Shown here: piece after piece, positions 9,742-12,390 of the stretch | Layout of the letters: every line of letters starts with the position of its first letter | Numbering within the stretch: the stretch's first letter is position 1 | Origin: Bdellovibrio bacteriovorus | GTDB lineage: Bacteria; Bdellovibrionota; Bdellovibrionia; Bdellovibrionales; Bdellovibrionaceae | DNA: 64,000 bases | Reading direction: 5' to 3' | Assembly (NCBI RefSeq): GCF_002208115.1 | Contig: NZ_CP020946.1 | Coordinates: 1,798,001-1,862,000, forward strand | The notes under the pieces: generated by a model | What the model was told of the DNA's origin: nothing | What the model saw: only the letters and a program-made list of their open reading frames with translations | Databases searched by the model: none | Program-made: the position numbers and the translations under genes

Positions 9742-10638
9742 ATGGCAAAAATCGTTAAAAAGAAGCCCGCGGCCAAAGCCGCTGCAAAACCAGCTAAGAA
9801 AGCGCCCGCAAAAGCCGCAAAGCCAGCTCCAAAAAAGCCGGCTCCGAAGGCTGTTGTAAAGAAAAAGGCCGACAAAGCCCCTGTTAAGGCGGCTAAAAAG
9901 CCTGAGGCGAAGAAAAAGCCGGAAGTAAAACCGGCTAAAGCCCCGGTTAAAGCAGCTAAAGAGACCAAAGAGGTTAAAGAAACCAAGGTCGAAGCGGCCA
10001 AAAAAGCCGAAAAAAAGGCAGCCCCGCAACCTGCTCCTGAAAAAGCTGCGCCTAAAAAAGAGGCAAAAGCCCCTAAAAAAGGCAAAGCGAAGAAGGAAAA
10101 GGACGAAAACGAGCTGGAAGACGATTTTATCGCCGATGACGATCTGATGGGCGATGAAATTGGCGAGTACGAGGAAGAACTCAAAGCCGTCGAGGAATCC
10201 GAAGAGGAGATCGAGGTTGATGAAGAGTGGGTTGCCGAGGAAAAAGCCAAGTCTGACGAAGAAGTGGTTCTGACGGATGCCGAAGGCCGCCGTTACTGCC
10301 GTGCCCGTGATTGCGACCAGATCGCTGCCGTGGATGCTTACTGCCGTTACCACTACCTGATGTTCTGGAAGAAAATCCAAGTTCGTAAGAAGATCCTTCA
10401 GGATGGTAAACTTGAGCGTTATGTGGAAGAGCTAACCTCTCGTTATCCGGACAAATTCCTGGAAATGATCCGCCGTGATTTGCGCACTGAAAAAGACTTC
10501 CTGGCAGCCATCCAAGAGCTGGAAATCGACGAATCAGCGAGCGACAATGACTTTGAAGAGGATAACAGCGCATTCATCGAAGAAGTTCGTGGAATGGGAG
10601 AAGGATCCGGCTCTGGAGTAGAAGACGACGAGTACTAG
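9742..10638 (+). CDS. Histone-H1-like Lys/Ala/Pro-rich protein with Cys/His cluster
   Basis: Three zones are visible in 298 residues. Residues 1-115 are almost wholly Lys, Ala and Pro with KKPAAKAAAK-type repeats, like eukaryotic H1 tails and bacterial histone-like DNA-condensing proteins. Residues 118-178 are strongly acidic (Glu and Asp). Residues 180-265 form a compact domain with C186-x4-C191-x9-C201-x2-H204, a plausible zinc site, followed by aromatic and basic helices (YHYLMFWKKIQVRKK). The end is acidic again. No signal peptide is present. A DNA- or RNA-binding role is inferred from the basic tail and possible zinc site. The domain order is unusual and I do not recognise a named family. 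A small structured element follows its stop. Confidence 0.8.
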   Translation: MAKIVKKKPAAKAAAKPAKKAPAKAAKPAPKKPAPKAVVKKKADKAPVKAAKKPEAKKKPEVKPAKAPVKAAKETKEVKETKVEAAKKAEKKAAPQPAPEKAAPKKEAKAPKKGKAKKEKDENELEDDFIADDDLMGDEIGEYEEELKAVEESEEEIEVDEEWVAEEKAKSDEEVVLTDAEGRRYCRARDCDQIAAVDAYCRYHYLMFWKKIQVRKKILQDGKLERYVEELTSRYPDKFLEMIRRDLRTEKDFLAAIQELEIDESASDNDFEEDNSAFIEEVRGMGEGSGSGVEDDEY

Positions 10639-10837: not shown

Positions 10838-10870
10838 AAGACCTGCCCTTGTGGTGGGTCTTTTTTTTTG
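10838..10870 (+). terminator. Rho-independent terminator
   Basis: AAGACC (10838-10843) pairs with GGTCTT (10857-10862), with further partial pairing inside, and a run of about ten T follows from 10861. It ends transcription from the 9742-10638 gene and the structured element, so the riboswitch gene downstream must have its own promoter. Confidence 0.8.
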
Positions 10871-10956
10871 TTTGGGGACATAGGCTGGGTGCGTTAGGGT
10901 CCTTAGTTTTTTATTGCAAAGAGGAAATCTCGCCGTTACTACTAACCGCGGTTACA

Positions 10957-11019
10957 CAAATATAAGTCGGAGATAGGGTCCGACGTTTCTACCTGCCACC
11001 GTAAAGGGCAGTCTATTTG
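10957..11019 (+). promoter_or_regulatory. Purine (guanine-type) riboswitch aptamer
   Basis: All parts of the purine aptamer can be placed. P1 is CAAATA (10957-10962) with TATTTG (11014-11019). J1/2 is TAA. P2 is GTCGGA/TCCGAC (10966-10971, 10979-10984) with a seven-base loop GATAGGG. J2/3 is the invariant GTTTCTACC (10985-10993). P3 is CTGCC with GGGCAG (about 10993-11011), closed by the loop CCGTAAA. The loop G and C bases needed for the loop-loop contact are kept. The specificity base corresponding to C74 of the xpt aptamer is C11013, which predicts guanine rather than adenine. The base matching A73 is T11012, a departure from the consensus. P1 runs into the Shine-Dalgarno GGAG (11019-11022), with no terminator between aptamer and ATG, so control is probably at translation. 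Confidence 0.92.
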
Positions 11020-11027
11020 GAGCGAAT

Positions 11028-11507
11028 ATGTTGAAGAGCGCAGTTCTCTTTGTTGTTGTTTTGTTCTCTGTTTCCATGTCCCAGGCTTATGAAGCCTTCC
11101 CAAAGGGACCGGATGCCACTCTGACTCCGGGTGCTCTTTGCAACCGTCCGTCTGAATACCGTTACCCTGAAAAAATCAAATACTGTGAGCGCGATGTGTC
11201 TTCTTCTCAGAAGGCGGCTATCTTCCAGAAGTACGATCAGATCGGCTACAGAACGCGTTCCATGAAGCGTCTGGCGTTCAAGATTGATCACTACATCCCG
11301 CTTTGTGCAGGTGGCAGCAATGATTCTAAAAATCTGTGGCCACAGCATGAGTCTGTTTACGAAATCACTGACAAATTGGAAGCTCTGATCTGTGAAAAAA
11401 TGGCTGCCGGCCGTTTGCTTCAGAAAGATGCTGTCGAAATCATCATCCAGGCGAAAAATCACCTGAATGAAGTTCCAGAAATTGAAGCTCGCGTTCGCGA
11501 ACTTTAA
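11028..11507 (+). CDS. Secreted HNH-type (His-Me finger) nuclease
   Basis: The 159-residue product begins with a signal peptide (cleavage about residue 20, ...SVSMSQA). The nuclease core is about residues 85-130: KIDHYIPLCAGGSNDSKNLW, with the D-H pair, the G-G turn and the Asn of the HNH fold, followed by a conserved helix with KLEALICEKMAAGRLLQKDA. The same arrangement occurs in small secreted bacterial HNH nucleases. Its likely job is to cut nucleic acid in the periplasm or outside the cell, for a predator the prey DNA or RNA. The gene is preceded immediately by a purine riboswitch and followed by a terminator, so it is a single-gene unit regulated by a purine or nucleoside. Substrate preference cannot be read from the sequence. 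Confidence 0.87.
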   Translation: MLKSAVLFVVVLFSVSMSQAYEAFPKGPDATLTPGALCNRPSEYRYPEKIKYCERDVSSSQKAAIFQKYDQIGYRTRSMKRLAFKIDHYIPLCAGGSNDSKNLWPQHESVYEITDKLEALICEKMAAGRLLQKDAVEIIIQAKNHLNEVPEIEARVREL

Positions 11508-11541: not shown

Positions 11542-11573
11542 GCCCGTGTCTGAATTAAGGCACGGGCATTTTT
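11542..11573 (+). terminator. Rho-independent terminator of the nuclease gene
   Basis: GCCCGTG (11542-11548) and CACGGGC (11561-11567) form a perfect seven-base stem, followed by ATTTTT. Confidence 0.88.
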
Positions 11574-11577
11574 CGTT

Positions 11578-12333
11578 TCAGGGGTTCAGGGCCTGCAGGC
11601 TGTTGAAGCGATTCATGATTCGGTCATAGGTTCCGTCAGCCCGGATGGCCTGCAGACCTTTTTCAAAAACATGGGCGTAGTGCGCTCCATCCTTGTGACT
11701 TTTTGAGAAATTCAAATACAGTCCATCTTTGGAAAGACGACCCACCGGCTGAATTTTCTTGGCCAGTTCGGGATGGTTTTTTAGAAGGTATTCTCCGGTC
11801 AGGCCCCATACGACGGCGTAGTCAATGCGATTGCTGGCCAGTTTTTCCAGTTGGGATTTTTCCGTGGGACTTTGTGAATGCAGAATTTTTTTGTTCTGCA
11901 AAAACTCCGTCGGGTAGGTGTAGCCGTTGGTGGTGCCAACCACTTTGTTTTCCATATCCTTCAAAGTGACGTTTTGCCGACCGTCGCGGATACGGCCATA
12001 GACGACCATTTCCGCTTCAAACATCGGTGTCTTGTGAAAGATGTATTTGTCTTTGGTGTCCTGGTTGATGATGGTGTCAAAGCAACCCAGGGATTTCCCT
12101 TTTTCAACTTCATAAATACAGCGGGCAAAAGGAACAGGGCGGGTGATCACTGTGATCCCCTGACTTTTGAAGGCGGCTTTCACGATTTCCGGCGCCAGGC
12201 CCACGACATCTTTATAGTCGGCGGAAGCCGAGGAGTAGGGTGCCCAGTCATCTTCACCATTGATGACAATAGTCGTGGCGTGGGCGAAATTCCCGGAACA
12301 GGCGAGTGTCAGTATTAGAAGTAGTTGCAGCAT
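11578..12333 (-). CDS. Periplasmic solute-binding protein, family 3 type
   Basis: The start at 12333 (MLQLLLILTLACSGNFAHA) is preferred because AAGGA lies eight bases upstream and it gives a tidy signal peptide; an ATG at 12351 is the alternative. The mature part of about 230 residues follows the SBP_bac_3 pattern: INGEDDWAPYSSASADYK at the N terminus, VGLAPEIVKAAFKSQGI, ARCIYEVEKGKSLGCFD, and a late lobe ending IRADGTYDRIMNRFN. Members of this family deliver amino acids or related solutes to ABC permeases or act as sensors. No permease or ATPase gene is adjacent, so this may be an orphan binding protein. The ligand is unknown. Confidence 0.85.
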   Translation of the reverse strand: MLQLLLILTLACSGNFAHATTIVINGEDDWAPYSSASADYKDVVGLAPEIVKAAFKSQGITVITRPVPFARCIYEVEKGKSLGCFDTIINQDTKDKYIFHKTPMFEAEMVVYGRIRDGRQNVTLKDMENKVVGTTNGYTYPTEFLQNKKILHSQSPTEKSQLEKLASNRIDYAVVWGLTGEYLLKNHPELAKKIQPVGRLSKDGLYLNFSKSHKDGAHYAHVFEKGLQAIRADGTYDRIMNRFNSLQALNP

Positions 12334-12390
12334 CCTGAGTCCTTCAAACATGCTCTTTCATTATCTCGACAAGCCACAAGAGAGCTAACT

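Follow-up and report, generated by a model that had tools for sequence, protein, structure and literature searches.

Purine riboswitches in front of putative secreted nuclease genes form a conserved regulon across much of Bdellovibrionota

Guanine riboswitches are the textbook control of purine synthesis and import, and some adenine riboswitches (add type) regulate translation. In Bacteroidetes, riboswitches of the 2'-dG-II class are located upstream of genes for endonuclease I, ComEC and phospholipase D, and C occupies position 51 in both 2'-deoxyguanosine (2'-dG) classes (PMC8872408). For Bdellovibrio bacteriovorus, the only riboswitch mentioned in a transcriptome paper is of the c-di-GMP type (PMC3627812), and a list of 20 annotated nucleases of strain HD100 has no HNH-type entry (PMC3593177). 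In the literature that we searched, no paper ties a purine or guanine riboswitch to nucleases of Bdellovibrio; an earlier passing mention is possible.

Here we describe a purine riboswitch directly in front of a gene for a putative secreted nuclease. It lies in a window of 64,000 nucleotides (the whole stretch of DNA that was analysed) from a complete, 3.77-Mb B. bacteriovorus genome. A search with cmscan gave a full-length match to RF00167 (Purine; model positions 1-102) that scored 53.5 bits, above the gathering score of 37. A sequence-only reading of the same DNA had claimed a purine aptamer at 10957-11019 and proposed covariance-model scoring as a check, which the claim passed. The claimed limits coincide with the outermost pair of P1, C10957-G11019, and are thus accurate to the base. 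The features of the locus, all on the + strand, are as follows.

10838..10870, +: hairpin resembling an intrinsic terminator, with T run, 5' of the unit (hairpin 10838-10862, 10-bp stem, 5 GC)
10914..10919, +: putative -35 element TTGCAA (conservation in genus-level HNH leaders)
10937..10942, +: putative -10 element TACTAC after a 17-nt spacer (inspection and conservation)
10938..11035, +: purine riboswitch (RF00167)
10957..10962, +: P1 5' strand CAAATA (sequence and alignment of leaders)
10966..10984, +: P2-L2 hairpin (P2 10966-10971/10979-10984)
10977-10978, +: kissing-loop G37/G38 in L2, pairing with C10999-C11000
10985..10992, +: J2/3, GUUUCUAC, with U51 at 10990 (guanine-base pocket)
10993..11011, +: P3-L3 hairpin (P3 10993-10998/11006-11011)
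10999-11000, +: kissing-loop C60/C61 in L3
11012..11013, +: J3/1, with C74 (guanine-pairing residue) at 11013
11014..11019, +: P1 3' strand UAUUUG
11019..11022, +: Shine-Dalgarno (SD) sequence GGAG at the base of P1
11028..11507, +: open reading frame for a putative secreted HNH nuclease, 159 aa, with homologues in 49/66 family genomes
11028..11087, +: N-terminal signal peptide (MLKSAVLFVVVLFSVSMSQA; sequence inspection)
11286..11348, +: putative HNH core D87-H88 ... N98 ... N102 ... H107 (conservation in 44 homologues; AF2 arrangement)
11542..11567, +: terminator-like hairpin 3' of the gene (terminator-like site scan)

The aptamer fold is strongly conserved in an alignment of 76 non-redundant leaders. 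P2 is paired in 96.3% and P3 in 95% of alignment cells, the kissing pairs form in every sequence (76/76, 100%), C74 is invariant and the covariation score is 0.626 versus 0.222 for shuffled alignments. Covariation in P1 reaches the fifth pair, with both sides of pairs 4 and 5 changed in 33 and 28 sequences, and pairs 3-5 are formed in 79% of leaders versus 52% with shuffled partners. Since the orthologue in related genomes has the same aptamer and covariation is well above the shuffled level (0.63 versus 0.22), the pairing of riboswitch and nuclease is not a matter of chance.

The upstream terminator that had been claimed at 10838-10870 was found, as a terminator-like hairpin followed by a T run. 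The nuclease gene had also been taken as the only gene downstream of the aptamer; with hairpins both before and after it, the unit indeed looks monocistronic. On the + strand between the aptamer and the ATG there were zero terminator-like sites. A simple sigma-70 scanner called no promoter at the locus. TTGCA(A) is retained amid variable flanking sequence in almost every HNH leader of the genus, and because this element and a -10-like element are kept upstream, the RNA would start just 5' of the aptamer. From this conservation we propose TTGCAA/TACTAC as a putative promoter. Endonuclease I leaders often have a similar TTGC(A/C) element upstream. On either side of the unit, the window encodes a secreted solute-binding protein (11578-12351, - strand; SBP_bac_3, E 2.8e-10) convergent with the nuclease gene, and a protein without a Pfam match (9742-10638, + strand) whose long N-terminal half is rich in Lys, Ala and Pro and whose C-terminal end is acidic.

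The 159-aa product had been read as a signal-peptide-bearing HNH nuclease. Inspection bears out the signal peptide, and the HNH assignment is favoured by residue conservation and, weakly, by fold comparison; a significant family match was not obtained. In 44 homologues, D87, H88, N98, N102, L103, W104 and P105 never vary and H107 hardly does. The AF2 model (pLDDT 94) has strands at 84-88 and 103-107 followed by a helix at 108-126, a beta-beta-alpha arrangement, and its best PDB fold matches are HNH nucleases, although with weak scores (E 0.026 in Foldseek; Z 4.2 and rmsd 3.1 over 76 residues in VIA). Among Pfam families, HNH_5 was found at E 0.031 and 14.6 bits, below the cut-off of 27.5, and no curated HNH family reached significance; NCBIfam profiles gave no match and a PDB sequence search no relevant match. 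The protein is thus a probable HNH nuclease. Its counterpart in B. bacteriovorus strain kdesi is 86% identical.

A whole-genome search returned exactly two RF00167 matches, neither of them before a purine gene. This agrees with the earlier observation that the guaB leader lacks such an aptamer. The second match (67.5 bits) lies directly before a gene with a GTG start for a secreted 289-aa protein, an Endonuclease I (PF04231, E 1.8e-32), and here the SD sequence, GGAGG, is within P1. Genome G003, probably that of HD100, encodes Endonuclease I at three sites (0.887, 1.179 and 3.415 Mb) and has a riboswitch only at the one near 3.415 Mb. This order matches Bd0934, Bd1244 and Bd3507, and Bd3507 is very probably the HD100 counterpart of the riboswitch-linked gene. 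Bd3507 is secreted into the bdelloplast and its transcription peaks at 1-2 h (PMC7925074). The published plasmid pEBF11, in which mCherry is joined to the promoter and start codon of bd3507 (PMC7925074), probably carries the riboswitch as well.

RF00167 is present in 57/66 genomes of the family and in 89/325 genomes phylum-wide. We classified the downstream genes behind 147 matches, 109 in the family and 38 outside it; classes were assigned within clusters from BLAST clustering and motifs, with Pfam run on representatives only.

HNH type: 73/147 matches
Endonuclease I: 39/147 matches
PD-(D/E)XK-like: 11/147 matches (motif GELD...EVKCW)
EEP: 6/147 matches (Pfam up to E 1.8e-26)
EndoU: 2/147 matches (Pfam E 6.9e-16)
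EamA transporter: 11/147 matches
DUF3465: 4/147 matches
truncated locus: 1/147 matches

Secreted or putative nuclease (nuclease-like) genes of five unrelated folds follow 131 of the 147 matches, and the 38 matches outside the family again precede mostly nucleases. No recognisable purine-synthesis gene stood behind any of the phylum-wide matches (0/147). The search for the same aptamer before nuclease genes in relatives, which the sequence-only reading had suggested, thus came out positive, and the combination of purine sensor and secreted nuclease that it had pointed out holds at both sites of the genome and through most of the phylum-wide set. What has to be given up is the idea of a single unusual arrangement: it is a conserved regulon across much of Bdellovibrionota.

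Several members of the set deserve comment. The PD-(D/E)XK-like class is a secreted family of ~190 aa (L014, L019, L062, L157, L171, L173 and relatives) with invariant GELD...EVKCW and conserved cysteines. Pfam gave nothing above the cut-off for these proteins, and the invariant motif suggests that they are probably unannotated PD-(D/E)XK nucleases. Genes for secreted EndoU-type ribonucleases stand directly behind the riboswitch at L143 and L172. At L017, L026, L082 and L114, secreted DUF3465 proteins are encoded behind a guanine-type riboswitch, a position that suggests a role in nucleic-acid breakdown. The EamA leaders (L077, L111, L112, L119, L120, L132, L134, L138, L141, L166, L169) have a slightly different aptamer, with J2/3 mostly GUCUCUACC. 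Their start codon is usually 33-57 nt past U75, which implies another expression platform, and the riboswitch-linked EamA protein is possibly a purine or nucleoside transporter. At L163, L167, L168 and L176 the match spans only model positions 24-82, which comprise the core and leave out the P1 context seen elsewhere. One record, "Nitrosovibrio sp. Nv4 (MAG)" (L225), has a Bdellovibrionota-like riboswitch and nuclease and is probably a mislabelled or contaminated assembly.

The HNH-riboswitch link is not universal. RF00167 stands in front of 35 of 80 HNH homologue loci from named genomes, some of which have short upstream sequence, making absence uncertain for each of those. On a quick protein tree of modest support, the riboswitch trait requires at least 7 changes versus ~26 when labels are shuffled; almost every Bacteriovoracaceae homologue on the same tree is without it. 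Because some homologues, notably those of Bacteriovoracaceae, have no riboswitch, nucleases of this kind do not all need this control.

How would the riboswitch act? Among the scored leaders, the SD sequence starts 3 or 5 nt past U75 in 110/132 and the start codon is mostly 12-16 nt past U75; in the window the ATG at 11028 is 14 nt past U75. With both so near U75, there is no room for a terminator. The earlier reading had placed the end of P1 within the SD sequence, and the P1 3' strand does stop on the first G of GGAG. Given an SD sequence in or against P1 and no terminator space, translational control by ligand-stabilised P1 is the simplest mechanism, and it implies repression. It had been proposed that free purine times or limits nuclease production; the limiting half of that proposal would fit the SD-in-P1 layout.

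We lean, with moderate confidence, toward a riboswitch with a guanine-I pocket that represses translation of the secreted nuclease as a member of the regulon, so that digestion is matched to purine supply. Transcription would probably begin a little 5' of the aptamer. The breakdown of prey RNA and DNA would raise the level of free purine bases. When guanine (or hypoxanthine) is high in the predator's cytoplasm, it would pair with C74 and lock the three-way junction, which would stabilise P1. As the SD sequence lies in or next to the 3' strand of P1, it would be blocked, no ribosome would load and the nuclease would not be made. When guanine is low, P1 would open, and the nuclease would be made and exported. 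Such a guanine off-switch would limit digestion once purine is plentiful and match it to the predator's supply. This suggests a purpose: the predator would adjust the digestion of prey nucleic acid to the guanine it has already obtained. Older physiology papers reportedly describe Bdellovibrio as using the ribose of prey RNA and letting the bases out.

There is an opposite possibility. Guanine is set free when DNA and RNA are degraded, and prey guanine could serve as a cue that digestion has started: in the free RNA the SD sequence would be sequestered by J2/3 or by downstream sequence, and ligand binding would free it and raise nuclease output. Folded as free RNA, the window leader has a minimum-energy structure in which GUUUC of J2/3 pairs with GGAGC at the SD sequence, which would suit an on-switch, and SD accessibility in this leader rises slightly, from 0.28 to 0.36, when the aptamer fold is forced. 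The bulk of the SD sequence is also outside P1 in HNH leaders, where P1 includes only its first one or two bases. However, the SD sequence of the Endonuclease I type (UAUGGAGG) is inside P1, where ligand would bury it, and pairing between the SD sequence and J2/3 averages only ~9% in the ensembles across leaders, so that it is not a conserved alternative helix. Forcing the aptamer fold changed SD accessibility from 0.29 to 0.27 in HNH leaders and from 0.31 to 0.28 in the Endonuclease I type; together with the window leader, the thermodynamic ensembles show no consistent direction, and energy models thus do not establish the off direction. Simple folding of the 151-nt leader was uninformative (z-score -0.31). 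We consider an on-switch unlikely.

Repression by guanine presupposes the ligand, and here too there are alternatives. J2/3 is GUUUCUAC with U51 in nearly all nuclease leaders and C74 is conserved; as these residues form the canonical guanine-I pocket, guanine is the expected ligand and hypoxanthine a possible one. Guanine or deoxyguanosine had been named as candidates beforehand: the pocket favours the former and U51 speaks against the latter. If the aptamer sensed another purine (2'-deoxyguanosine, hypoxanthine or xanthine), it would report DNA breakdown more directly. Variant guanine riboswitches with other ligands do exist (PMC9295807), and the endonuclease I and ComEC genes behind 2'-dG-II in Bacteroidetes (PMC8872408) lend this idea some appeal. 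Against it, U51 is kept here versus C51 in both 2'-dG classes (PMC8872408), which also sets these aptamers outside 2'-dG-II, and the insertions in J2/3 and J3/1 of xanthine-II (PMC9295807) are absent from them; we give another ligand little credence. A relic without function or a purely structural 5' cap, with no ligand-dependent control in either case, is scarcely credible in view of the conserved pocket bases, the kissing pairs intact in all 76 leaders, strong covariation in many genera and the repeated association with unrelated nuclease families.

We hold it likely that a phylum-wide guanine-sensing RNA regulon coordinates extracellular nucleic-acid digestion in predatory and related bacteria through at least five unrelated secreted nuclease families, DUF3465 and an EamA transporter, with purine supply metering digestion. 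If true, an intracellular metabolite sensor would set the extent of digestion outside the predator's cell. The regulon gives a direct hypothesis of how the release of nucleases in order during predation might be regulated, points to nucleases that are off the HD100 list (PMC3593177), namely the HNH protein and, in relatives, the PD-(D/E)XK-like proteins, and supplies functional context for DUF3465 and a transporter family. It may also bear on a strain without Bd0934 and Bd3507, in which extracellular DNase activity was higher while transcript changes were not strong (PMC7925074). The genes assayed in that study (PMC7925074) include no HNH gene, and since translational control is invisible to qRT-PCR, the extra DNase could be explained in this way.

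With guanine-I riboswitches of RF00167, for example those of B. subtilis, the aptamers described here share the three-way junction, the kissing loops, the J2/3 core with U51, and C74. They differ in the platform, which has the SD sequence within or next to P1 rather than a terminator, and in their targets: known guanine-I regulons comprise purine metabolism and transport (PMC8872408), whereas those of Bdellovibrionota comprise secreted nucleases. The RF00167 scaffold is also common to the adenine riboswitch of the add type, which has U74 where the present aptamers have C74, and a separate downstream platform where here the SD sequence is in P1 itself. The merRNA c-di-GMP riboswitch of Bdellovibrio occurs in the same organism but belongs to another class, and its authors did not find a conserved downstream ORF (PMC3627812). 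The closest precedent is 2'-dG-II, likewise a guanine-type aptamer over DNA-degrading genes, although that class has C51, a nucleoside ligand and a home in Bacteroidetes, in contrast to U51 and Bdellovibrionota here. Membership of the present aptamers in RF00167 is clear; what differs is the set of targets, which extends beyond the 2'-dG-II precedent to HNH, EEP, EndoU and PD-(D/E)XK-like nuclease families.
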